DNA from: a virus
IMG/VR virus record: IMGVR_UViG_3300021420_000068
Span: 1 to 42,957 of that record
Length of the DNA stretch: 42,957 bases
Strand: one strand, 5' to 3'
The position numbers and the translations under genes are program-made. This document shows positions 3,563 through 29,855 of this stretch, piece after piece (position 1 is the stretch's first letter; the number at the start of each line of letters is the position of its first letter). The notes below the pieces were generated by a model. The model saw only the letters and a list, made by a program, of their open reading frames with translations. It was not told the origin of the DNA and ran no database searches.

Positions 3563-3801
3563 GCGAGATGCTGGAACGGGTGGCGCTGGCGTTGCTTGAG
3601 GCTGACATCGGGCCGGGAGGCTGGCCCGAAACCTGGGTCAATCGCGAGATTTGGTATCGACGCGCTCGTGCCGCCATTGCCGCGATGAGGGAACCGACGC
3701 TGGCGATGTTGCTGGCGACGGAAGATTGTCCCGGTATCGGCGATGAACGCGGCGGAGTCCGCGCCGAATGGGAAGCCATGATTGACGAGGCCCTGAAATG
3801 A
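3559..3801 (+). CDS. Conserved phage-type small protein (80 aa)
   Basis: The pattern is familiar from many small phage and prophage proteins of alphaproteobacteria: an N-terminal LERVALALLEA helix, a Trp/Arg helix with RARAAIAAMREPT, and a C-terminal EWEAMIDEAL. No function is established for the family to my knowledge. It starts with ATGA overlap on the preceding HTH gene and ends the same way against the next gene, so it is tightly coupled. It is a soluble helical protein with no catalytic motif. Confidence 0.6.
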   Translation: MSEMLERVALALLEADIGPGGWPETWVNREIWYRRARAAIAAMREPTLAMLLATEDCPGIGDERGGVRAEWEAMIDEALK

Positions 3802-3995
3802 GCCGAGCCCACCGAAGACACGGACGCATCAAGGTGGCGTTGCAACAATTGCTGGTGGCACGGGAAAGGGCCGGCGCGTATTACGGCCTGATCATCGACC
3901 CGGAAACCGATGCGATCGTCGCCGAGATACCGTTATGGAGCATGGCCGCCCGCGACGTGTTCGAACTTCAGATCGAATGGAGGTGCGACGAATGA
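3798..3995 (+). CDS. Small hypothetical protein (65 aa)
   Basis: The N-terminus is Arg/His-rich (SRAHRRHGRIK) and is followed by a helix and a beta-type core (YYGLIIDPETDAIVAEI). No family is recognised. Both ends overlap the neighbouring genes by ATGA. It is one of the run of tiny early genes, which in phages often encode host-takeover or anti-defence factors; for this gene that is only context. Confidence 0.5.
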   Translation: MSRAHRRHGRIKVALQQLLVARERAGAYYGLIIDPETDAIVAEIPLWSMAARDVFELQIEWRCDE

Positions 3996-4288
3996 CCGCC
4001 CACATGCACCATACGCCCTCGCGCGCGAAACAATGTTGCGGGAACTGCGATGCGTGGCAGAAAGGACACATGCCCCGTAAATCCAATACGGAGCCCGTGT
4101 GTGGGTTTTGCAGGGCGGCCGGTCCTCACCTCGTCCAACTCATGCAACCGGGCCACAGCGTCACCGCAAGCGGTCCTGTGATGGTTCCAGTGAGCATCCC
4201 CAATGTTTGGCCGCCGGTCACCGAAAATGAATGGTGCCGGCTTTGGAAATGGCAGGATGATACCGATGACGACCACCGACCAGAGTGA
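3992..4288 (+). CDS. Cys-rich small protein (98 aa)
   Basis: Two Cys groups are present, CCGNC (about residues 14-18) and CGFC (about 37-40), with Trp and aromatic residues near them. A zinc-binding ribbon is likely. The C-terminal part is Pro/Val-rich and ends acidic. It may be a nucleic-acid or protein-contact module; no family is recognised. ATG at 3992 overlaps the previous stop (ATGA). The frame is open further upstream to 3935, but that part lies over the preceding gene. Confidence 0.5.
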   Translation: MTAHMHHTPSRAKQCCGNCDAWQKGHMPRKSNTEPVCGFCRAAGPHLVQLMQPGHSVTASGPVMVPVSIPNVWPPVTENEWCRLWKWQDDTDDDHRPE

Positions 4289-6138: not shown

Positions 6139-6579
6139 TCACGTGTTGAGTGAACGCAGCAGGTGGAAGCCGCAATAGGGCCGGTTTTCGTATCGCGCGT
6201 TTCCACAAAAGGTAAACGGCCCGTCGCCGTGCGCCCACCGGCAGCCGTCGTCGTCGCAAACCTGCAGCAGGGTCAAGTCCTTTGGCAACGGTTCTTCAAG
6301 TAAAATATCAGGTTTGCGCGGCACCGACTTTGGCTTCGGTTTGGCCCCCACCCTGCGCGTCGGCAGGTATTTGGGCTTTGACGAGTCCTTCGAAACCCGG
6401 TTCAACGGATTACTCAACCCCAGCCTCCTTGCCTTGCCGCAGACCCCGCATCGCGTGTAATCGGTGGTGAACTCGCGGTTCAGTATCTTCACCATCATCC
6501 CATAAGACAAACTGTGCGTCGCTACCAGCGCGGCCAGGCGCTCCTCATGCATTTTCGGCCAGCGGGTTTCTGATCCCAT
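6139..6579 (-). CDS. gcrA-like: GcrA-like cell-cycle regulator homologue (146 aa)
   Basis: GcrA binds sigma70 of RNA polymerase and stimulates promoters that carry CcrM-methylated GANTC sites in alphaproteobacteria. This protein has the same two-part plan. The N-terminal part has MHEERLAALVATHSLSYGMM and a ...CGKARRLGLS helix, the DNA-binding half. A basic Pro/Lys linker follows. The C-terminal part has CRWAHGDGPFTFCGNARYEN then RPYCGFH, matching the Cys/Trp/His sigma-contact half. ATG at 6579 is set 8 nt behind GGAGG; starts at 6582, 6585 or 6603 are possible. It follows the Cro-like gene by coupled overlap. Likely role: steering host polymerase to phage or cell-cycle promoters. Confidence 0.82.
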   Translation of the reverse strand: MGSETRWPKMHEERLAALVATHSLSYGMMVKILNREFTTDYTRCGVCGKARRLGLSNPLNRVSKDSSKPKYLPTRRVGAKPKPKSVPRKPDILLEEPLPKDLTLLQVCDDDGCRWAHGDGPFTFCGNARYENRPYCGFHLLRSLNT

Positions 6580-6581
6580 CA

Positions 6582-6827
6582 TCATCGCCTCCATGTCCGC
6601 CACGGGAGGGGCTGGCTATCGTTCAGGCCAAGGGGCGGCCATTTCAGAAACAGCGGGATATCCTCGATCGCCTCCATGAACTTCTCTTCGTCGAGCACGA
6701 ACCGGGCCAGCACCTCACCGCGCCCACGGGCTGTTTGTTGACGCGGTGAGGCCTGACCAACCGCCGGGAACCGGGAGGGAAGGCCGGCGGGAGCTGGCAT
6801 GAACGGGTTGGGAAGTTTTGATGTCAT
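6582..6827 (-). CDS. Small hypothetical protein (81 aa)
   Basis: The N-terminal half is Pro/Arg-rich and probably unstructured; the C-terminal half has an acidic helix (LDEEKFMEAIEDI) and ends Trp-rich. No family is recognised. ATG at 6827 overlaps the stop of the Cro-like gene (ATGA), and its own stop overlaps the start region of the GcrA-like gene. Its place between two regulators suggests a regulatory role, but nothing in the sequence shows one. Confidence 0.5.
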   Translation of the reverse strand: MTSKLPNPFMPAPAGLPSRFPAVGQASPRQQTARGRGEVLARFVLDEEKFMEAIEDIPLFLKWPPLGLNDSQPLPWRTWRR

Positions 6828-7231: not shown

Positions 7232-7413
7232 ACCAACAGCAAGCGCTGGCGCTGGCCAAGGTGATCGGCTGCTTGGAGGGCATCGTCGAGGCTGGGCTGT
7301 TCTCCTCCAGCGACGCCGAATTGGAGGTCCGAATCATCATCGCGGAGGCCCTGGCGGCATTTGATCTGCCGGGCAGGCACGAGCTGAACAACATGCCGAG
7401 GTTGCCACAATGA
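7228..7413 (+). CDS. Small hypothetical protein (61 aa)
   Basis: An acidic helical protein: a Gln/Ala/Leu N-terminal helix, then CLEGIVEAGLFSSSD, then a second helix (LEVRIIIAEALAAF). No family is recognised. ATG at 7228 overlaps the stop of the membrane-protein gene, and its stop overlaps the exonuclease start, so it is co-translated with the exonuclease. Confidence 0.55.
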   Translation: MNQQQALALAKVIGCLEGIVEAGLFSSSDAELEVRIIIAEALAAFDLPGRHELNNMPRLPQ

Positions 7414-8306
7414 GAATTGAAAAACCGGGAATCTATCGCGGCGTTTCGCCGGCCGACTATTTTCAAGACCCGTGCCCCGAACCGTCGCTAACGCAGTCGA
7501 TCGCCAAGGTATTGCTGGAGCGCTCGCCCATGCACGCGTGGACGGAGCACCCGCGGCTAAATCCTCATTGGGAAGAGGACAATGACAAGAAATTCGATCT
7601 AGGCAACGTCGCGCACGCGCTGATGCTGGGTCGTGGCAAGGACTTCGAAATCCTGCCGTTCTTGGACTACCGCACCAAGGCGGCGCAGGAGGCACGGGTG
7701 GCAGCGCATGACGCCGGCAAGGTTGCTATTCTGCAGCATCAGTTTGAGCAGGCTTCCGACATGGTTGCATCTGCTGTCGATCAACTCGCAAGCCACGAAG
7801 ATAGCGACGCCTTCGACAACGGTTGCCCCGAGGTGATGATCGCATGGCAGGAAGGTGGCATCTGGTGCCGCTCGCTGGTCGACTTCTTGACTGACGATCT
7901 GAGAAACATTACCGACTATAAGACCAAAGGGGTATCGGTCGCGCCGCATGTGATCGGAATGCACGCCGCAAACGATGGTTGGCACATCCAAGCAAACTTT
8001 ATTTACCGTGGCCTCAATAGCCTTGATCCTGGCGGCATGGGCAAGCGTCGCTTCCGCTTTATCGCACAGGAAACCGAGCCTCCCTATGCACTGACCGTCA
8101 TGCACATTGACGATCACTGGATGCTGATGGGCCACAAGCAGGTGGACATAGCGACCGCGACCTGGCGCCGCTGCATAAAAAACGATTTGTGGCCCGGCTA
8201 CCCCGCCAAGGGCATCGTGCCGGAATTCCCCGGCTATAAGGAAAAGTTATGGCTCGATCGCGAACTCAGCGGCGAGTTTGACCCAACGGTGCAGATGGCG
8301 GGCTGA
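7410..8306 (+). CDS. RecE/DUF3799-type PD-(D/E)XK exodeoxyribonuclease (298 aa)
   Basis: The N-terminus GIYRGVSPADY, PSLTQSIAKVLLERSPMHAW and HPRLNP, then FDLGNVAHALMLG, is the signature of exodeoxyribonuclease VIII-like (DUF3799) phage nucleases. Catalytic candidates are His69, Glu141, Asp158 in SLVDFL and Asp169-x-Lys171 in TDYKTK. Such enzymes chew one strand of a duplex from a DNA end to leave ssDNA for annealing. The next gene is a RecA-fold ATPase of the annealing type, so the two form a recombination module for end repair or replication. It begins with ATGA overlap on the preceding small gene. Confidence 0.88.
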   Translation: MRIEKPGIYRGVSPADYFQDPCPEPSLTQSIAKVLLERSPMHAWTEHPRLNPHWEEDNDKKFDLGNVAHALMLGRGKDFEILPFLDYRTKAAQEARVAAHDAGKVAILQHQFEQASDMVASAVDQLASHEDSDAFDNGCPEVMIAWQEGGIWCRSLVDFLTDDLRNITDYKTKGVSVAPHVIGMHAANDGWHIQANFIYRGLNSLDPGGMGKRRFRFIAQETEPPYALTVMHIDDHWMLMGHKQVDIATATWRRCIKNDLWPGYPAKGIVPEFPGYKEKLWLDRELSGEFDPTVQMAG

Positions 8307-8307
8307 T

Positions 8308-9195
8308 ATGACCTACACTTTCCGGACTGCGCGCCGCAGCGAGGCCAAGCCGCTGATCGGGCTGTACGCCGAATCAGGTTGCGGGAAAACTTGGTCCGCG
8401 TTGCTACTCGCCCGCGGCTTTGCCGGCCCGCAAGGCAAGATCGGCATGATAGAAACGGAAGGAGGCCGCGGTGAGGCTTATGTCGGACGTGATCCTGTCG
8501 GTGATTATCTTGTTTGTCCTATTAGGGGAAGTTTTGCGCCAGCGGCATATGGCGATGCAATCACCGCGGCGGAAGAAGCGGCGCTGGACGTGCTGATCAT
8601 CGACTCAGCGAGTCATGAGTGGGAAGGCGCTGGCGGCGTGCTGTCGATGGCGGCGGAGAATCAGGCCAACGGAGTCAAAGGCGTCTTGGTATGGCAAAAA
8701 CCAAAGATAGAGCACCAAAGACATTTTATGTTGCGGCTTATGCAAACCCCTATCCCGCTGGTCATCGTGTGTATGAGGGCCAAATATCCTATGGTGCAAG
8801 TACCTGGGAAGTCGGAATGGTCCCGGTCGACGCAACTGGAGCCGAAGCAGGCCGACGATATTTTATTCGAGATGATGATCCACGGCTGGATTGATCAGGC
8901 TCATAACCTGCACGTCACCAAATACACGCTGCCGGAGCTGGCGAGCGTGATGGAGGACGGCAAGCCGATCACGCTGGAAACCGGGCAGAGGCTGGCGGCA
9001 TGGGCACGCGGCGAGGAGGGGACTAGAAAGATCGATGACTTCATAGAGTGGGATACCAAACTGCAGACTGCAGCCCACAACGGCATCGACGCTCTGGCTG
9101 CCGAATGGAAACTTGTGCCGCGGCATCTGCAGACCGCGCTGAAATCCAATCTAGACACCATCCACAAGCCGGCTGCGGCAAAGGTGGCAGCATAA
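8308..9195 (+). CDS. Sak4-like RecA-fold ATPase, AAA_24 type (295 aa)
   Basis: A Walker A is present at about residues 21-28 (AESGCGKT) and a Walker B at about 94-99 (DVLIID), followed by an SASHEWEG segment. The first part (KPLIGLYAESGCGKTWSALLLARG) is typical of phage AAA_24 ATPases, of which Sak4 is the best-known. Sak4-type proteins stimulate single-strand annealing. The partner nuclease lies immediately upstream (one base between the genes). ATG at 8308 is chosen over one at 8278 inside the nuclease gene. No SSB gene is seen beside it, although Sak4 proteins often work with one. Confidence 0.82.
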   Translation: MTYTFRTARRSEAKPLIGLYAESGCGKTWSALLLARGFAGPQGKIGMIETEGGRGEAYVGRDPVGDYLVCPIRGSFAPAAYGDAITAAEEAALDVLIIDSASHEWEGAGGVLSMAAENQANGVKGVLVWQKPKIEHQRHFMLRLMQTPIPLVIVCMRAKYPMVQVPGKSEWSRSTQLEPKQADDILFEMMIHGWIDQAHNLHVTKYTLPELASVMEDGKPITLETGQRLAAWARGEEGTRKIDDFIEWDTKLQTAAHNGIDALAAEWKLVPRHLQTALKSNLDTIHKPAAAKVAA

Positions 9196-9211
9196 CTACA
9201 GGGAGTTTGTC

Positions 9212-9487
9212 ATGCTCTATGATCCAAGACGGGACGTGCAATCCGATCCGCTGCTGGTCACGACCCTGATCGCCTGGCTGGAAACGCAGCCACCGGATGA
9301 ACTGTATTGTTTCAGCGACAAGACGGATTGCCTAATTGCGCAATACGGCGCCGCGCATGGTAGGCGTGGCTGGGATAATCTCACCTGTGTCGATCTGACC
9401 TGGTTGGGTTTTTATAACATCGCCGTCGGCGAGCCCTGGACGTTCGGTGGTGCGCTGGAACGCGCCCGTGCGGAGGTTAGTCGGTGA
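9212..9487 (+). CDS. Hypothetical protein (91 aa)
   Basis: No family is recognised. The 91-residue product has an N-terminal helix (LLVTTLIAWLETQPP), a Cys/Asp-rich turn (YCFSDKTDC), and an aromatic part (WLGFYNIAVGEPWTFGG). It looks like a small alpha/beta protein. GGGAG lies 7 nt before ATG at 9212. Its stop overlaps the next start. It may be an accessory of the recombination module. Confidence 0.5.
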   Translation: MLYDPRRDVQSDPLLVTTLIAWLETQPPDELYCFSDKTDCLIAQYGAAHGRRGWDNLTCVDLTWLGFYNIAVGEPWTFGGALERARAEVSR

Positions 9488-10020
9488 TGTCATCCCCTGA
9501 AACAGAACATGAAGCGATCCGGCGTCTCCGAGCCTCGGTGACGGGCGACGATCCAACATTGGAATTTGGCGATCATAGCCCCTTTGACGACATTCGGGTT
9601 TTACTGGCTGAGTATGATCGTCTCTGTTCTGCCCAAAAACACGCGCCGGTCGCGTGGCTATACGAATCTTGGAACGGCGAGGACGATTGGAGCAAGCACA
9701 TTACCTTTGAAAAACCAGAGGGCGAGAAGTGGCAGCGCAATATCGTCGCGCTGTATCCCGGTCCTGTTGCATCGACGAACAGTCCAACCGTGTACGAGAT
9801 GGTCAGAGAGGCCTATGCGAACGGGTTTGAGGACGGGAAGTTAGCGCATAAAACGCCGCCAGCTATTCTTTCATCGACTGATCGGCCCGAGATCATTCCG
9901 CCATCGGCCGACATTCCGACCCGCGAGCAGATACGGGATGCACTGGAAAAGCAATACGGCAAGCCTGTTCCTCATACTGACAGCGCTGTGGCGCGCCCAA
10001 ACAGGACCGAAGGTAAGTGA
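9487..10020 (+). CDS. Hypothetical protein (177 aa)
   Basis: The central part (PVAWLYESW, then VALYPGP) is of a kind often seen in phage hypothetical proteins. The C-terminal third is Pro-rich and basic. No catalytic motif is seen. ATG at 9487 (TGATG overlap) is given; GTG at 9484 adds one residue. The reading frame continues after its TGA for 35 sense codons with a Cys pair (see 10021-10128). Confidence 0.5.
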   Translation: MSSPETEHEAIRRLRASVTGDDPTLEFGDHSPFDDIRVLLAEYDRLCSAQKHAPVAWLYESWNGEDDWSKHITFEKPEGEKWQRNIVALYPGPVASTNSPTVYEMVREAYANGFEDGKLAHKTPPAILSSTDRPEIIPPSADIPTREQIRDALEKQYGKPVPHTDSAVARPNRTEGK

Positions 10021-12763: not shown

Positions 12764-13276
12764 TCATGTGACCATAGAAAGCGCGTTATTTTGCACAAAT
12801 GCAACCCGATTTAGCCATCCGCGCAGGAACCGGGGCTGTCCGAGGCTGCGGTAGAAGGTGCTGGCCGCCGCCGAATAGCGCTGAATCACGGTGGTCGGGT
12901 CCAAGGTGGCGATGGCCTGGCGGGTAATCGGACCGATCCGCCCATCGGCATTGACACCCAGCGCCTGCTGCAGCAGCACCGTCGCCCGGTACGGTCCGGC
13001 CAGCACGCAATTGTTGAAATACATATAATCGAGCCCCGCCGGCATCATGTCGCCATAGGGTAACCAGTACTCATTGTGGTAGATGGCCTCTATATCGGCC
13101 TGCGGCGCGGTCCAGACATCGATCTTTGGCAGCCCCTGCTCTGCACGCCAAGCGTCATATTCGCGCTGGGTGATGCCTCTGGAGGTCCGCCCGCCGTGGT
13201 CTAAAGGGTCATCGTCGTTGCCGCCCTCCGATTCCAGCACCAGGGCGAGGCTTTTGGCGAAATTGGCAGCGACCAT
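12764..13276 (-). CDS. Endolysin, glycosyl hydrolase family 108 (170 aa)
   Basis: The N-terminal ALVLESEGGN motif gives the catalytic Glu17 of the GH108 (ZliS/TtsA-type) lysozymes. DHGGRTSRGIT follows as in the family. The C-terminal part (about residues 100-165) is the peptidoglycan-binding 3 type domain with LLQQALGV and DGRIGPITRQA. It would cleave the glycan of murein. There is no signal peptide, so it depends on the adjacent holin. Length is normal for the family. Confidence 0.88.
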   Translation of the reverse strand: MVAANFAKSLALVLESEGGNDDDPLDHGGRTSRGITQREYDAWRAEQGLPKIDVWTAPQADIEAIYHNEYWLPYGDMMPAGLDYMYFNNCVLAGPYRATVLLQQALGVNADGRIGPITRQAIATLDPTTVIQRYSAAASTFYRSLGQPRFLRGWLNRVAFVQNNALSMVT

Positions 13277-13279
13277 GAC

Positions 13280-14992
13280 CTACCCCGGAATCAGCAGCGA
13301 TGGCTTTACCGTAAACGTCGTGTCGGGCGAGGTACAGATCGCCGCACCCGTGGCCTGCCACTTGTAGGTCCATGTCCCCGAGACGCTGGGGATCAGTTGC
13401 TGGTGGAAGTGGCCCAGCGAATCACGGGTGATGGTACCGGGGAAGTTGAACGAGGAGGTAACACCGTTCGGATTGAGCATGAACAGCGTGATCACGGTCG
13501 GGTCGATATAGACCCCGGCCAGCGAGTCGATAAATTCGCCGTTGATCTGGATGTCGGTGTCGATTTCATAGATGCCCATGTAACCCGCTCCGCTCCAGCC
13601 CTGGCCTGATGGACTGTCCGATCCAACCGCCGCGAACAGGCCTGTGTCGAGGGCATTGGCGGAAAATACCGGGATATCGACACAGAACGCAAGCGACGGC
13701 ACGCCGGTGATCGGCAGGATCGCGGTGGACAGGAACCCGCGCTGCGGGGTCTGACGCCACCACACCGCCCGTTCGTCGATATTCCATGCCCACCACGGGT
13801 TGATCCGCATCGGCGGCGGCAGCGGCGGCGGGAACGGCAGGTTAAGCAGGCCCTGCGGCGGCTGCCGCCAGATCGCCGATTCGTCGGTGTTGTAGTTCCA
13901 GCTCCAGAAGTTGGAGTTCGGCCGCAAGCCCAATAGCGGCACTATGGTCGAACTCTTCGGCGACGACTTCAGCCACATCTGCGGGTCGTCGAGATTGGCG
14001 TAGTTCCAGAACGGCGCAATGAACGGCTTGGCCTGCATCTGCGACGCCAGCAGGGCGCCGCGCTGGTACAGCGGCTGCCAGGTAACGGCGGCCTCGTTAT
14101 AGGCCATGTACGGCCAGAGCTTCGGGATGACGGGGATCGGCTGTGCGGTCCGAATCACCAGGTCGCGGTTGGCCCACGGGAACCAGTGCGAGGCATCGTT
14201 ATAGTCGTAAACGCCATTCCATTTCTTCTGCGGCGGCTGGCCGCCTACCGTCACGATTGCCGCGATGTCGCTGCGCAGCGCCTGCCACTGCCAGACCGAC
14301 CAGTCGTCGACGCTCTGTGGCTTCCACTGCAGCGCAGCAAACGGGGAGGCCTGCGGGGCAGAGAAAATCGTGGTCGGCGTCTTGCGCGGCGGAATCACCA
14401 GATCGACCGCATCGTCGGCATGGCTGACCACGATGCCACTAGTCTTGTACGGCACCAGTTGCAGCGCTGGCGAGGTGGCCGGCGCGGCCCACTGCCAGTT
14501 CGATGTCTCGTTGAAATCATATTTGGCCTGCCGCGCCAGCGTCGGCGGCGTGAACGTCACCGAAACACTTGGGTGTGGCAGCACCCAGTTGTACCAGTCG
14601 GCCAGGTCATTCGGCCGCGGCACGTAGAACGGCGAATAAAACAGCACCGGCACGTTGGGCGTTACCAGAGCCGTGAAGGAATTCAGGGTTTCGGGCGCCG
14701 GGGACCAGTGTGACGACTCGTTATAGTCATAGCGCCACTGCTGGAAGAACGGTTTTCCGCCCTCTGTCAGTAGCTGGATCGGTGCCGAGTTGAGAGTTTC
14801 AGCCGTTACCTGCCAGGCCCCCGTTTCCTGATAGTCATAGTGCCACTGCTTGGTCGGCACCTGACCCGCGGCGCCGAACATCTTCTGTGCAGTAAGAAAC
14901 TGGATAACCGGAGCCTTGATCGGTCCCTTCGACCATAGCTGGTCCTCCGCCGGCCGCGGGATGTAGAACGGAGGCTGGACGACGACAGTCAC
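13280..14992 (-). CDS. Aromatic-repeat structural/fibre protein with C-terminal Ig-like domain (570 aa)
   Basis: Residues about 8-412 are made of roughly twelve degenerate units with a 35-36 residue period. Each carries an aromatic-acidic core such as WHYDYQETGAW, WRYDYNESSHW, KYDFNETSNW, VYDYNDASHW or WSWNYNTDESAIW, followed by a hydrophobic, Pro-containing linker. Residues about 470-570 form an Ig-like beta domain (DSLGHFHQQLIPS, GTWTYKWQATG, DTTFTV) of a type seen in other phage proteins. I know no named family for the repeats. It is encoded just before the endolysin among virion-surface genes, so a fibre or host-contact role is likely. GTG at 14992 overlaps the preceding stop. Confidence 0.7.
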   Translation of the reverse strand: MTVVVQPPFYIPRPAEDQLWSKGPIKAPVIQFLTAQKMFGAAGQVPTKQWHYDYQETGAWQVTAETLNSAPIQLLTEGGKPFFQQWRYDYNESSHWSPAPETLNSFTALVTPNVPVLFYSPFYVPRPNDLADWYNWVLPHPSVSVTFTPPTLARQAKYDFNETSNWQWAAPATSPALQLVPYKTSGIVVSHADDAVDLVIPPRKTPTTIFSAPQASPFAALQWKPQSVDDWSVWQWQALRSDIAAIVTVGGQPPQKKWNGVYDYNDASHWFPWANRDLVIRTAQPIPVIPKLWPYMAYNEAAVTWQPLYQRGALLASQMQAKPFIAPFWNYANLDDPQMWLKSSPKSSTIVPLLGLRPNSNFWSWNYNTDESAIWRQPPQGLLNLPFPPPLPPPMRINPWWAWNIDERAVWWRQTPQRGFLSTAILPITGVPSLAFCVDIPVFSANALDTGLFAAVGSDSPSGQGWSGAGYMGIYEIDTDIQINGEFIDSLAGVYIDPTVITLFMLNPNGVTSSFNFPGTITRDSLGHFHQQLIPSVSGTWTYKWQATGAAICTSPDTTFTVKPSLLIPG

Positions 14993-15804
14993 ATCAGCAC
15001 CATCGGCTGATAACCCGGCAGCGTGAACGACGGGGCGGCGGGAGTTTTCAGCATCGCCGCGAGATCAGTCTTCTGTGGATACCAGAATGACCACGGATCG
15101 TTCGACCATTGCAATAGTTGCGGAGTTGATAACAGGGCCGTGGTCCAGCAAACCGCGGCAATGCTCGCACCGCTCACAAGATTGGAACGCACGCCAGTGC
15201 CAATGCTGGCGATCCCCGCAGAGGGGGCCATGATGATCGCGCTGGGGGAACTGACTGGGAAGGTTATGACCTGTCCCGTGTCGAGACGTTTCAGGACAAA
15301 CCGAGGCATCGAGGAAACAATGTCATTTATCAAAGTAACGGCAAGGAAGTAGGGGACGCCTATGGTAACCGAGACGCCAGTCGGGAAATCGACCGCCGAG
15401 TTGGTGTTCACCTCTATGCCAAGCGAGTTGAGCGTCAGTCGAATGGTGTTGGTGCCGCGCTGTGAGTCCGTAGTGAAAAGTACTCCCGCAGAATTGGAAG
15501 TATTGGCGACGAATATGCAGCCGATGGTCAGCGTCGTGTCTGTTGCCGTCGAGACAGGAACAGTTACCGCATCGGTCGTGCCGGAGAATTTTACGGCGGG
15601 GCCGAGCGCGGAATTGATCAGAGCGGTTGGCGACGCAGTGACGGTTCCGGCAGAACCGTTCATCAGGCTGATGAAATCGCCATTAAGCGCAACGCCCGAA
15701 TACCGGATAAATCCCTGCGCGGCTGGATGCGCCCAATTGATCCCCGGCGCTGTCGCCGGAAAGACCAGCGGGTTCTTCGAACGAAAGGGCAGGATCAGGC
15801 CCAT
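14989..15804 (-). CDS. LamG/concanavalin-like structural protein (271 aa)
   Basis: The central part (about residues 40-220) reads as a beta-sandwich of the LamG/concanavalin A-like type: alternating Thr/Val strands, ALGPAVKFSGTTDAV, LTIGCIFVAN, TIRLTLNSLGIEV, VLKRLDTGQ. Such domains are common in phage tail and decoration proteins that bind sugars. The C-terminal WSNDPWSFWYP is a distinctive ending. It neighbours the aromatic-repeat protein, whose start overlaps its stop. Sugar binding is inferred from fold type only. Confidence 0.55.
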   Translation of the reverse strand: MGLILPFRSKNPLVFPATAPGINWAHPAAQGFIRYSGVALNGDFISLMNGSAGTVTASPTALINSALGPAVKFSGTTDAVTVPVSTATDTTLTIGCIFVANTSNSAGVLFTTDSQRGTNTIRLTLNSLGIEVNTNSAVDFPTGVSVTIGVPYFLAVTLINDIVSSMPRFVLKRLDTGQVITFPVSSPSAIIMAPSAGIASIGTGVRSNLVSGASIAAVCWTTALLSTPQLLQWSNDPWSFWYPQKTDLAAMLKTPAAPSFTLPGYQPMVLM

Positions 15805-16691: not shown

Positions 16692-17051
16692 TCATCCCCT
16701 CAACTTCTGTAGCGCCAGGTTGGCAGGCCCGGAATTCGACGTGCCGATGTTGGTGGCCTGCGGGTTATAGGTCTGGACCGCGATATCGAAACAGGAATCG
16801 CACAGCATCGGGTCCGCTTCCGAATCGGGGATATGCAGGATGTTGCGGAGTTGGAACCGTTCGGCGAACGTCCGCAGTTTCGGCTCGTATTTCTGCAGGC
16901 AGTGCCGGCACACGGGTTTTCGTTCGGCGAGCGCAGTCAGGATCATCCGGGCGTGCAGCGAGGCGCCGAGTTCGGCCTCCTTGCTGTCCAATACCTTCTG
17001 GGCCTCGCGAGCCAGTTGCCACGCCTGATACCACGATTTCAGACTCATCAT
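16692..17051 (-). CDS. Zinc-binding hypothetical protein (119 aa)
   Basis: Two Cys pairs, CRHC (about residue 48) and CDSC (about 84), are spaced as a treble-clef or zinc-ribbon site. The N-terminus is a charged helix. The C-terminus is Asn/Ser-rich. No family is recognised. It lies between structural genes and both ends overlap its neighbours, so it is co-translated with the virion proteins. Confidence 0.5.
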   Translation of the reverse strand: MMSLKSWYQAWQLAREAQKVLDSKEAELGASLHARMILTALAERKPVCRHCLQKYEPKLRTFAERFQLRNILHIPDSEADPMLCDSCFDIAVQTYNPQATNIGTSNSGPANLALQKLRG

Positions 17052-17566
17052 TCAGGCTCGTAAATCGTGTGGCAGCCAATCGCACCGGGGGTGCCGCCGG
17101 TATAGGCCGAGAGCGACAGTTCGCCGAACGAGGCAGTATTGCCCAGGATCAGCGGGCATTCCTCGACGCGGTTGGCGCGCCAGAAGTAGACGCCACCGAA
17201 CGCATTCAGACTCATGTTCATCAGCTTCAAGGTCGCTGAGCGCTGCGGTGGCGTGGTCCAGGTGTTGTTGAGGACGACCGGAGCTGCGAGTGCGGCGGTG
17301 GCCGGGTCGAGCGCTGCGTCGGTGCCGATATTGGCCGGGAACGTGCCGGGCGTGGCGCCGACCGCGGAGTCTCTTGCCAGCAGCATGAATGTCGGCGAGG
17401 ACGACGAGGCGGCCTGTCCCGAGATCGAGGTTTCCCACATCCTCACGACCTGGGTGGCGGAACCGCCTTGGATCGCATAGGGGTAGGTGGCGTTGGCCAG
17501 GGTAGTGGCGGCGTCGGCGGTGGCGGTTGGAGTAATGGTGACATATTGCACGATGCGTCTTGCCAT
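17048..17566 (-). CDS. Beta-rich structural protein (172 aa)
   Basis: The product is Ala/Thr-rich with clear alternating strands (VQYVTITPTATADAA, PVVLNNTWTTPP, SATLKLMNMSLNAFGGVYFW). No signal peptide. It resembles small phage decoration or tail-surface proteins in composition. GAAAGG lies upstream of ATG 17566. Its first 124 nt are overlapped by the zinc-finger gene above, in another frame. Confidence 0.5.
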   Translation of the reverse strand: MARRIVQYVTITPTATADAATTLANATYPYAIQGGSATQVVRMWETSISGQAASSSSPTFMLLARDSAVGATPGTFPANIGTDAALDPATAALAAPVVLNNTWTTPPQRSATLKLMNMSLNAFGGVYFWRANRVEECPLILGNTASFGELSLSAYTGGTPGAIGCHTIYEPE

Positions 17567-17898
17567 AGCGGTAGTCCTTTCGCTGCGCTGTTGAGAAAGC
17601 TGTCTAAAATCCTCTTAAACGGCACGCACGGATGACCGAGCCGCATCAACAGTGAGCATCGATCACAAATATCATGGTCGCAGGAACGGCAATACCCCCG
17701 GCTGCGATCACGCTTCGGGTTGAGGATGATTGTATACTGACAATGGGAGCACTGCATAGTGGGCGATTTCAGCACCGTGCCGCCCGGAACAACCAGTTTT
17801 GACCCCACCGAGGCCGCCTGTTCGGCCGAGATGCCGGGCGAATTGGAATGGTCAACCTCGACATAGCCCTCCAGATCACGCTTGCGAACGGTGCTCAC
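17443..17898 (-). CDS. Zinc-finger protein with long out-of-frame tail over the next gene (151 aa)
   Basis: Residues about 45-95 contain CSHC, CRSC, CDRC and a further Cys, a two-site zinc module. The last 41 residues are Pro-rich and lie over the first 124 nt of the next gene in another frame. That tail (PPPPTPPLPWP) has the composition of a shadow frame, so the natural end may be near the Leu-rich stretch before it, with a lost stop codon. No family is recognised. The overlap is far longer than the usual 1-8 nt here. Confidence 0.5.
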   Translation of the reverse strand: MSTVRKRDLEGYVEVDHSNSPGISAEQAASVGSKLVVPGGTVLKSPTMQCSHCQYTIILNPKRDRSRGYCRSCDHDICDRCSLLMRLGHPCVPFKRILDSFLNSAAKGLPLWQDASCNMSPLLQPPPPTPPLPWPTPPTPMRSKAVPPPRS

Positions 17899-18638
17899 AT
17901 CATTACCAGTCGGGCAGAGACGATCGGGGCGGCGCCAGTGGCGGCGGGCTTAATAGCCATCACAAGCGCAGCGGCACTAGCACCCGTCCCGTTGGTCCAG
18001 GTTCCGGCGATCGTACCTGCCGCGGCTTGGGTCCGCCATTCGGATTGAAGCCGGTTTGTGCCCGCCCCGGTATCGTTGAAAGGCCCCGTGAACCCGGTCC
18101 CGGCAGTTGATAGTATGGCGTCCTCGTTTTCGCAGGTGCAGGACCAGATCAAATCGCCATTGCCGGTTGTGGTGATGTTGCCCGAGGTCAGGGCATTCGC
18201 ACCAGTGCCGGGAACCAGAACCTGACCAGTGTGCGAGGCGGTTGTGCCATCTGACGGTGTTGAACTAGCAAAACACCCCGAGAATTCGTCGGCTATCATG
18301 CAGACGTTGCCGCCGTTGGGACTAAGCGCGGCTGTGATGACGGTAGGGCCGCCGGCGGGAATATTGCCGAGGATAAAGGTCGCAGTGACGGCGAAGCTGC
18401 CCGAACCTTCCTTGACGTTATCGGTATACGTGCCGGGCGATGCGCCTGACGTGGCGGTGAAGGAATAGGAATTGCCCTTGTTGTCGGTGATCGAGGTGAT
18501 CGTGGTGTTGTTGTCACCGAAGTGAACAGCCCCGATGACAGTATTGCCAGGCGTGACACCCGCACCAAAGGTTGTCGTCGCCGTGGTTTGTGACCCGCCT
18601 GCAAAGTTGGTAGCGCCCTGGACGCGAGTGAATGCCAT
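17895..18638 (-). CDS. Beta-sandwich structural protein (247 aa)
   Basis: It begins MAFTRVQGATNFAGG and continues with long Thr/Ser/Gly strands (NTVIGAVHFGDNNTTITSIT, TVITAALSPNGGNVCMIADE). This is the style of phage or bacterial surface domains of the DUF-type jelly-roll group. AGGAT lies upstream of ATG 18638. It has no signal peptide. Likely a virion or host-contact protein; no specific family. Confidence 0.5.
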   Translation of the reverse strand: MAFTRVQGATNFAGGSQTTATTTFGAGVTPGNTVIGAVHFGDNNTTITSITDNKGNSYSFTATSGASPGTYTDNVKEGSGSFAVTATFILGNIPAGGPTVITAALSPNGGNVCMIADEFSGCFASSTPSDGTTASHTGQVLVPGTGANALTSGNITTTGNGDLIWSCTCENEDAILSTAGTGFTGPFNDTGAGTNRLQSEWRTQAAAGTIAGTWTNGTGASAAALVMAIKPAATGAAPIVSARLVMM

Positions 18639-27315: not shown

Positions 27316-27666
27316 CTATATGATGCCTAGAGCCTGCCTGATGACGGCGTGTACCGTCGCATGATAGCCCGTCCAGTTATAGAAGTCATTTTCGTCGTCG
27401 AGGTTGACCTGTGAGAGGTCAATCGAGGTGATGCCGAGCGCGGCGTGGATCAGGTTGTGTTGCGCCGCGTGCGACTGCACCATCGACGGGTTGGCGGTTC
27501 CAGCGGTCAGGAACGACAGCAAATCCGGGTCCGGCAGCACGATCGGCGGCACTTGCTGCGACAGCACCTGGACAAACTGCAGATGTTCGCGGCCGTGGCC
27601 CATGTCCCAGGCGCCATAGCCGGGCAAATCCTTGAACGTCACCTGATCCGGCTGGAACTGCGGCAT
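27316..27666 (-). CDS. Hypothetical late protein (116 aa)
   Basis: A folded-looking acidic protein with His and aromatic residues (GAWDMGHGREHLQFVQVL, QSHAAQHNLIHAALG, WTGYHATVHAVIRQALG). The regular His-x3-His helices suggest a compact helical or metal-binding protein, but no known motif is satisfied. ATG overlaps the stop of the large tail protein (TAATG). Possibly a tail-completion or adaptor protein by position. Confidence 0.5.
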   Translation of the reverse strand: MPQFQPDQVTFKDLPGYGAWDMGHGREHLQFVQVLSQQVPPIVLPDPDLLSFLTAGTANPSMVQSHAAQHNLIHAALGITSIDLSQVNLDDENDFYNWTGYHATVHAVIRQALGII

Positions 27667-29855
27667 TACTTGTTGCCCACGTTTGTTTCTTGATACTCGA
27701 TCGTCAGGTTAGTCATCGTGAAGTTGGCGAGCGTCCCGGTCACCGTCGCGCCGAGATAGCGACCGCTGCCGTCCTCCGTCGCCGTCAGGGCCTGGAAGCC
27801 GGTCGGCACCGCCGTCTTGTACAGATTGGTGCCCTCGTTGGTATCCATCGACAGGCTGATCTGGACGTTCGCCACCGCGGTAGCCGCAAATCCGCCGCGC
27901 AGCGTCTTCTTGCGCTGCACTGCATTGCCGTGATGGGTCAGCGCGGTCTGCAGCTTGAATGCCACCGGCTGTGCCGCGTTGGCGAGGATTTGCGTGATGT
28001 CCTGCCCGGATGAGGCAAAGGTCAGCGTGCGGCCAGAGGCCAGCGTCGAGGCGGTGGCGACCGCCGTCAGTCCCGTGCCCTGGTTGATGACGAACCATTT
28101 CTTGCCGGTGAAGGCCAACAGGATCGAGCGCTCGTTAGCCAGCGGGTCTTTGTAGCGCACCAGCCAGGCGATGTGATGGATGTTGTTGATGTCGGCGATG
28201 CAGGCCTGCGGCTCCTGCGTGAAGTCGATCAGCTTGAAGATGCCGTCGAGATCGTCGGATATCTTCTGCACGCTAGAGCCGAACACCGCATAGACGCCGT
28301 TGGTGTTGGCAAAGAAGAACACCCGGTTGAACGAGCCGCAGCTATTGGTGTAGATCGTGCCCTGGTCTGATGAGAGCGTCAGGATGGTGAACAGCGTGAT
28401 ATGGCCGGTGGCGTCGAGCGAGATGTTGCCGATCTGCTTGATCGACTGGTCGCCCATGATGAACAGGTAGTTGTTGTAGTTGCGCAGCGCCGTGATGGAA
28501 TGCGTCAAATCCGCGTCGGTGATGATCAGGCTGCCGCTAGCGTTGGTGGCGGAAAAATCGTCGAAGCCTGCCGTTCCGGTATACTGCAGCAACCTGAGCA
28601 GCCCGCCGGGGATCGGGCCATTGAGCCACACTCTGCCGCCAAACACCGCGATCGTGGTGCCCTTTGGCACGAACGGCCAGACATGGGCGTTGGCGGCCGC
28701 TCCCGTACCGCCACCACCGGAAAAGCCTACGGTCAGCACGTCGCTCGCCAGATAGCCGGCGCCGTCGTTGGTCAAGGTGACCGAGGTAACGCCAGAGCCG
28801 CCGACCACCGCTGCCGCTGTCGCTCCTACACCCGCGCCGCCGCCTGTAAACGAGACATTGGGCGCACTGGTATAGCCCGAGCCGCCAGATGTCACCGTGA
28901 TCGACAGCACACGCCCGTTGCCGACGGTGCAGGTGGCGACAGGCGGGAAGCCGCCGGTGCCGAACGAACCACCGGAAAACACCACGGCGGGCGCGCTGGT
29001 GTAGCCTGACCCGGCCGTCACGATCGAGATGCCGGTCACCACGAAGAACCCGAAGCCATTGACGGAAAACGTGGCTTGCGCCGTGGCACCAGAGCCGCCG
29101 CCGCCAGAGAATGAAGTCACCACCGGCGTCGGCAGATTGATGTCGCGGTAAGCGCCCGGGTTGGTGACGGTGACGGTGTTGACGCCGCGCGGGTCGATGT
29201 TAGCGGTTGCCGCCGCGCCGATGCCACCACCACCGGCGAACACAACGCCCGGTGCCGGACCATATCCCGAGCCGCCATTGATGACGTTGACGGCGACCAC
29301 GGCCGGCGTGCCGATGGTGGCAACTGCAGTAGCGCCGGTGCCGGAGCCGCCGGTGATGGTAACGGTCGGCGGCGAGGTGTAGTTGGCGCCCGGCGCGGTC
29401 AGGTTGATCACCGGCGACACCCCGCCCTGCTGTACGAATGCGGTGCCGTCCCAGGTCGAATAGCCGGCGGTCGGGTCGTTGATCAGGATACGCTGCGAAT
29501 TCCACACCGTCATGTCGGGATTGGAGAAGGTGCCGGGCGAGGCGAACCGCGCCGAGATGCCGGTCGCGATATTGGTGGCCCAGCCGGCGCCGTTGGTGGT
29601 GAACGAGATGATGTAATCGATGGGACCGATATTGGCGTAGTATTGCAGATTGATGGTGTCGGCGATGTTGGAGATCGCCGTATTCGGTCCCGGCACCGTC
29701 ACTAGGTTATTGGGCGCGATCGGCTGCAGGTTCTCCAGCCATGCCAGTTCCTTCTCGTTCAGCGCCTGGCGCACGCTCTGGGTGTTCATCTTCTCGAACT
29801 GCTCGAAAACGATGAACTTGCTTTCAGCGCGCTGCATCTCTCCGGGATGCGGCAT
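27666..29855 (-). CDS. Tail nozzle/hub-like protein with six GSGY repeats (729 aa)
   Basis: Residues about 1-145 and 400-729 form a beta-rich framework (TAISNIADTINLQYY, YNNYLFIMGDQSIKQIG, GSFNRVFFFANTNGVYAVFG, ERSILLAFTGKKWFVIN) that resembles the propeller-like nozzle proteins of short-tailed phages (P22 gp10 or T7 gp12 analogues). Residues about 149-392 are an insertion of six copies of a motif like GGSGYTSAPxVxFxGGGGxGATA. The same motif is found in two other proteins of this phage. GAGG lies 6 nt before ATG. Nozzle assignment is inferred from size, order and fold style. Confidence 0.62.
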   Translation of the reverse strand: MPHPGEMQRAESKFIVFEQFEKMNTQSVRQALNEKELAWLENLQPIAPNNLVTVPGPNTAISNIADTINLQYYANIGPIDYIISFTTNGAGWATNIATGISARFASPGTFSNPDMTVWNSQRILINDPTAGYSTWDGTAFVQQGGVSPVINLTAPGANYTSPPTVTITGGSGTGATAVATIGTPAVVAVNVINGGSGYGPAPGVVFAGGGGIGAAATANIDPRGVNTVTVTNPGAYRDINLPTPVVTSFSGGGGSGATAQATFSVNGFGFFVVTGISIVTAGSGYTSAPAVVFSGGSFGTGGFPPVATCTVGNGRVLSITVTSGGSGYTSAPNVSFTGGGAGVGATAAAVVGGSGVTSVTLTNDGAGYLASDVLTVGFSGGGGTGAAANAHVWPFVPKGTTIAVFGGRVWLNGPIPGGLLRLLQYTGTAGFDDFSATNASGSLIITDADLTHSITALRNYNNYLFIMGDQSIKQIGNISLDATGHITLFTILTLSSDQGTIYTNSCGSFNRVFFFANTNGVYAVFGSSVQKISDDLDGIFKLIDFTQEPQACIADINNIHHIAWLVRYKDPLANERSILLAFTGKKWFVINQGTGLTAVATASTLASGRTLTFASSGQDITQILANAAQPVAFKLQTALTHHGNAVQRKKTLRGGFAATAVANVQISLSMDTNEGTNLYKTAVPTGFQALTATEDGSGRYLGATVTGTLANFTMTNLTIEYQETNVGNK

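Follow-up and report, generated by a model that had tools for sequence, protein, structure and literature searches.

Tryptophan-rich repeats and an Ig-like C-terminal region in a candidate surface protein of an uncultured phage

We analysed a 42,957-base IMG/VR virus record (the window, meaning the whole stretch) and found that one gene encodes a 570-amino-acid protein with a Trp-rich repeat array at the N-terminus (residues 1–432) and an Ig-like region at the C-terminus (residues 433–570). The array consists of real coding repeats, above chance both by self-comparison and by a cross-validated hidden Markov model (HMM). With confidence just short of evenly balanced, we read the product as a virion surface or adhesion protein composed of a variable, multivalent repeat arm and an Ig-like anchor; its presence in the virion, the end that anchors it and its binding to the host surface are points that we infer. 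The repeat sequence and the gene cassette that accompanies it appear undescribed within the databases and literature searched; phage surface proteins that are modular and carry repeats are in themselves already known.

The repeat gene and its units

The gene (13280..14992, − strand) starts with GTG and has no internal stops. Its start overlaps by 4 bases the stop of the open reading frame (ORF) directly upstream (14989..15804, − strand; 271 amino acids), for which no relative was found among the fetched loci, and a 3-base gap separates its end from an endolysin ORF (12764..13276, − strand) with GH108 and PG_binding_3 domains (Pfam E values of 9.5e-19 and 4.8e-10). Residues 1–420 contain 6.7% Trp and 12.9% Pro. 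When these residues were compared with themselves, 88 windows of 15 residues scored at least 30, compared with 3.6 ± 3.7 (s.d.; maximum, 14) in 100 shuffles, and the strongest lags were 36, 70 and 106. An independent HMM, seeded from the units of two related loci alone (L014 and L015), gave the window protein 35.6 bits, a score that none of 500 shuffles reached (their best, 8.1), and its relative in locus L002 18.5 bits (best of 500 shuffles, 8.4); six window units passed an i-E of 0.01, compared with at most one in any shuffle. An HMM iterated over the family, which is circular in that the model includes the scored proteins (the window protein among them), delineated 12 units in the window (10 with i-E <1e-3 and 2 degenerate) and 19, 10 and 11 matches in L002, L014 and L015, respectively. 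A simple acid-to-Trp anchor recurred at steps of 33–40 residues, with one unit missing. An earlier note on this DNA had described about twelve repeats of 35 residues and had proposed a self dot-plot as a check; count and step both hold, and the self-comparison is periodic. The unit consensus is roughly YdYDDpsvWq.tP.rsnliPiLT.qg.P.

Numbered from the N-terminus and all on the − strand, the units begin with a partial unit 1 (14885..14944, residues 17–36; i-E 5.3e-4 in the iterated model, no match in the L014/L015-only model). Units 2 (14744..14845, residues 50–83) and 3 (14657..14737, residues 86–112) reached 2.8e-15 and 7.3e-12 in the iterated model, and 1.2e-4 and 2.5e-6 in the L014/L015-only model. 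The degenerate units 4 (14576..14611, residues 128–139; iterated i-E 5.9) and 6 (14339..14371, residues 208–218; iterated i-E 6.1) are not significant and were positioned from the spacing; between them lies unit 5 (14447..14521, residues 158–182; 5.5e-7 iterated, 2.4e-5 L014/L015-only). With values given in the same order, these are followed by units 7 (14231..14308, residues 229–254; 3.5e-10, 2.9e-9), 8 (14132..14209, residues 262–287; 3.3e-8, 3.9e-5), 9 (14018..14116, residues 293–325; 1.9e-6, 0.012), 10 (13931..14008, residues 329–354; 1.2e-7, 0.24), 11 (13835..13900, residues 365–386; 8e-7, 0.0021) and 12 (13697..13792, residues 401–432; 5.1e-10, 0.032).

As the earlier note had supposed, no named repeat family was found in Pfam, PHROGs, NCBIfam or PDB sequences. 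The window protein matched 0 families at E ≤1 in Pfam and NCBIfam, where the L002 and L014 proteins gave no family and the L015 protein gave DUF6882 alone (13.7 bits; cutoff, 23.9). A profile search of the repeats against the PDB returned three weak matches (best E 0.26; a tail fibre at 0.44 and a tailspike at 1.3), none of which we take as evidence. No match for the window, L002, L014 or L020 proteins was found by tblastn in 50,697 phage records, in which the L004 and L009 proteins had weak, chance-level matches only, and a plasmid search gave no match for the L020 or L015 proteins. The repeat words YDWPNP, YDYPNP, DWPNPRG, YDWPNPR and YDDPSVW were not found in the literature searched, in which FFGAGG occurred only in two unrelated papers; the titles and abstract openings examined contained no description of the window repeat.

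The C-terminal region, related loci and the upstream cassette

The conserved C-terminal region (13283..13696, − strand; residues 433–570) is common to L002, L006, L009, L003 and L004. AlphaFold gave a pLDDT of 76–90 in ten-residue blocks over residues 481–560, with strands predicted at residues 479–562. Foldseek and VIA-align placed Ig-like or beta-sandwich folds at the top of the structural matches: the best VIA-align rows (Z 9.8, rmsd 2.6–2.7, 85–93 residues) were CBM56 and ChiW chains (beta-sandwich), and the next were many antibody domain (Ig) chains (Z 8.6–8.9). As modelled, the region is an Ig-type beta-sandwich, in agreement with the Ig-like domain previously suggested for this end of the protein; such folds are common and do not indicate function. 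It resembles the Ig-like domains of phage tail and neck proteins in occupying one end of a (here presumed) virion protein but, unlike them, passed no Pfam Ig family cutoff. The best BFVD matches were uncharacterised phage proteins, together with one Foldseek match (A0A6J5RSF0, E 3.9e-4) that is named BppU N-terminal domain-containing; the BppU family was absent from the Pfam matches of nine domain sequences at E ≤10. The N-terminal BppU domain is described as anchoring side fibres or receptor-binding proteins in siphophage baseplates (PMC7291167). Carriers of the BppU type (TP901-1 and others) are likewise modular and have a beta-sandwich domain of the anchor type, with which the window protein, its virion status presumed, can be compared; however, its domain is C-terminal whereas that of BppU is N-terminal, its arm is a Trp-repeat array and no BppU match was listed in Pfam. 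A related domain is found at the N-terminus of head–tail adaptor-like proteins in L011 (5944–6858) and L012 (2439–3344), and a head–tail adaptor PHROG was matched by 3/9 domain sequences, a count that does not indicate which three.

The same Ig-like end follows three types of upstream repeat: the window type, a DWPNP type (L006 and L009) and a DAAVPLE type (L003 and L004). The window-type repeat occurs in four distinct proteins (window, L002, L014 and L015, the last being the same as L016). A scan for YDDPSVW-type words gave 23 stretches, with significant arrays only in L048 and L051, both pieces of the L014 contig. The DWPNP repeats, which are Trp/Pro-rich and mostly 30–41 residues long, occur at the same kind of locus in ten proteins (L006, L009, L020–L024 and L027–L029). 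A scan for the word YDWPNP gave nine stretches, with repeat ORFs in L022, L023, L024, L027, L028, L029 and L030 (the L009 contig) and no motif-bearing ORF in L025 or L026; L020 and L021 were found by protein search. The DAAVPLE proteins (L003 4600–6579 and L004 1075–2739) have many repeats of 17–18 residues, as judged by eye, and no family match above cutoff. A Leptolyngbya match (L005) was discarded because no ORF encodes it. In L009, a second, stand-alone copy of the C-terminal domain (3669–4061) lies directly after the repeat gene.

Window and DWPNP repeats are linked by locus and, in two cases, by the C-terminal domain, not by repeat homology. Alignment of the two repeat profiles with hhalign gave a probability of 0.6%, equalled or exceeded by 1/10 column shuffles. 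The score of one DWPNP HMM (d1) was reached by 2 of 500 shuffles for L014, 12 for L015, 192 for the window and 452 for L002, and with another (d3) no window-type protein stood out. We regard as doubtful the broader proposal that the two types are branches of one undescribed Trp/Pro fold in uncultured soil phages, in which an exchangeable, length-variable, glycan-binding arm and a dedicated cassette (Zn-ribbon and 172-amino-acid proteins) would form a new adhesion module.

This cassette lies upstream of the repeat gene on the same strand. In the window, it comprises the 172-amino-acid protein (17048..17566, − strand), usually encoded just upstream of the repeat gene, and a Zn-ribbon-like ORF (17443..17898, − strand; 151 amino acids from this start) with sub-cutoff IBR/FYVE Pfam matches only; neither protein had a match in the phage collection. 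DWPNP-type loci share this cassette with the window. Among the fetched repeat-bearing loci, the Zn-ribbon-like ORF was present in 11/14 and the 172-amino-acid ORF in 12/14, and the cassette directly precedes the repeat gene in L006, L021, L023 and L028, compared with an interval of about 2 kb in the window. Whole-record searches for the 172-amino-acid gene covered 16 records (14 repeat-bearing and 2 DAAVPLE) and detected it in 13, namely 13/14 repeat-bearing records (all but the fragment L024) and 0/2 DAAVPLE records. Six DWPNP contigs (L022, L023, L024, L027, L028 and L029) had been found by DNA motif alone, so the presence of the gene in five of these six is not an ascertainment effect. Through this linkage, the module can be sought in further phages. 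A Cys-rich ORF of 119 amino acids (16692..17051, − strand) occurs only beside the DDPSVW repeat type (window, L002, L014 and L015), and a 247-amino-acid ORF upstream of the cassette (17895..18638, − strand) is related to L014 3737–4447. L023 has a tandem duplicate of the 172-amino-acid gene (967–1476 and 1492–2001).

Divergence and candidate roles of the repeats

The repeat gene is under constraint, yet changes faster than its 172-amino-acid cassette partner: pN/pS was 0.44 (window–L002) and 0.37 (L014–L015) for the former, and 0.15 and 0.08 for the latter. The faster change can also reflect relaxed constraint; the endolysin value (0.33, window–L002) is not far lower. Between the window and L002, identity was 59% in the repeats versus 86% (118/138) in the C-terminal region. 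Aligned Trp residues were identical at 27/28 positions (window–L002) and 20/21 (L014–L015), 47/49 together, whereas all aligned residues were identical at 250/427 and 285/396. Stretches of 136, 68, 36 and 30 residues in the L002 alignment are absent from the window protein, and 33 residues of L015 are absent from L014. These differences are close to whole repeats, which shows gain and loss of repeats by whole units.

A reading in which the repeats contact the host surface fits such fast, whole-repeat evolution. About twelve Trp/Tyr/Asp/Pro repeats of 35 residues at the N-terminus would form a variable, multivalent arm in contact with the host surface, plausibly binding sugar polymers through its conserved aromatic residues (we infer sugar binding from the Trp/Tyr/Asp-rich cores only), and the Ig-like end would, by analogy with BppU, be the anchor. 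The L014 and L015 proteins have no Ig-like domain; the domain therefore cannot be a required anchor, and the anchor may be elsewhere. The natural series of about 10 to 19 repeats makes multivalent binding testable. Alternatively, the array may be a passive shaft, its repeats intertwining, for example as a trimer, into a beta-rich rod; this rod would only set the reach, and binding would fall to another protein. Length changes by whole repeats and the tail or fibre partners in relatives agree with this, but searches found no known shaft family and repeats that diverge faster than their neighbours would be odd in a passive rod; we consider a shaft unlikely.

Structure prediction gave no repeat fold. 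For the full-length monomer (8 rows), AlphaFold returned a mean pLDDT of 33.8, with residues 1–430 at approximately 20–33, and a three-repeat L015 fragment (14 rows, monomer) had a pLDDT of 40 and a pTM of 0.15, with no fold. These failures exclude no fold, because the alignments were shallow and the runs monomer-only; monomer prediction would also fail on an intertwined oligomer, as a shaft would be.

The array was modelled as coil. This, like the near-invariant Trp within variable, Pro-rich spacers, agrees with an extended, mostly unfolded strap or ruler-like chain whose Trp motifs would each dock on one subunit of another virion protein. Tape measure proteins provide a precedent: their tandem repeats are variable in number and marked by conserved Trp, and regularly spaced W/F residues, with a period of 11 residues (or 11-11-18), are docking anchors (PMC3271669). 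The window array departs from that description, with a period of about 35 in place of 11 (lags of 36, 70 and 106 dominate; lags under 20 were unscored), Pro-rich repeats, a C-terminal Ig-like domain, a tail-fibre setting and a podovirus-like genome (by its ejection protein profile). Repeat counts also vary (window, 12, of which 10 are clear; L002, 19; L014 and L015, 10–11), which leaves no fixed ruler length. We consider such a strap unlikely; were it correct, the protein would represent an unusual case, a Trp-marked assembly chain that is not a tape measure protein.

Genes and domains of the tail type accompany the repeats in relatives. In the L021 protein, DWPNP repeats are fused to a domain whose counterpart in L027 (31% identity over 166 amino acids, E 1.5e-6) stands alone as the neighbouring gene for a 215-amino-acid protein, which matched minor tail profiles (phrog_2106, E 4e-9). 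The C-terminal part of the L021 protein matched a profile named 'tail protein and host specificity', with an E value of 3.8e-5. The L022 protein contains Pfam Gly_rich_2 above cutoff. In L015, a tail-fibre-like gene, third after the repeat gene, matched a tail fibre assembly profile (8444–9955, E 8e-13), and in L009 the second gene after the repeat gene carries the S74 chaperone (Peptidase_S74). Most tail-type fusions are of the DWPNP type, whose link to the window rests on locus and partner domain. The earlier proposal of a solenoid or propeller fibre among fibre-type genes gains support for its setting from the neighbours and fusions of relatives; on its solenoid or propeller shape, the AlphaFold runs with shallow alignments speak neither for nor against.

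Tail or fibre partners also weigh against a role as a cell-wall or lysis helper, in which the repeats would attach to the wall of the host and cooperate with the neighbouring endolysin. The GH108 endolysin adjoins the repeat gene in both the window and L002, and the L029 protein has a PASTA-like stretch at its end (19.7 bits; cutoff, 23.2); however, of the fetched loci, L002 alone showed a relative of this endolysin gene, in contrast to the widely shared upstream cassette, and we judge this role very improbable. Such stretches, below the curated cutoff, lie near the end of the DWPNP proteins of both L028 (8701–9816) and L029 (250–1083). We favour the adhesion reading because the conserved Ig-like end, the fast, whole-unit-variable Trp array, the exchange of array types and the tail-type partners fit it. 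If true, it would add a repeat type to phage surface proteins and explain a set of genes that are blank in current annotation libraries.

The phage and its other genes

PHROG profiles in the window include terminase, head–tail adaptor, major head and DNA ejection proteins, and the phage-collection matches of the second ORF are annotated as portal protein. In the phage collection, the closest terminase matches belong to environmental records, at 40%. Together, the profiles and the distant terminases indicate a podovirus-like phage that has no close cultured relatives. Given the kind of IMG sample, the repeat-bearing contigs presumably derive from soil. A GcrA-type cell cycle regulator (6139–6603, − strand; PF07750, 45.9 bits; cutoff, 26.9) was found in 2 of the 16 records searched, the window and L002. 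GcrA is mainly alphaproteobacterial, and the regulator hints at an alphaproteobacterial host; in a control search, GcrA matches occurred in Caulobacter and also in Sulfolobus.

A 729-amino-acid ORF (27666–29855, − strand) matched, across residues ~130–400, many PHROGs of the virion structural, baseplate and head-closure kinds, and matched no Pfam family. On the strand opposite the structural genes, adjoining ORFs with PDDEXK-like DUF3799 and AAA_24 domains (7410–9195, + strand) are likely to be a recombination pair. A tRNA-Gly gene (ccc; 72–157, + strand) lies close to the record's left end.
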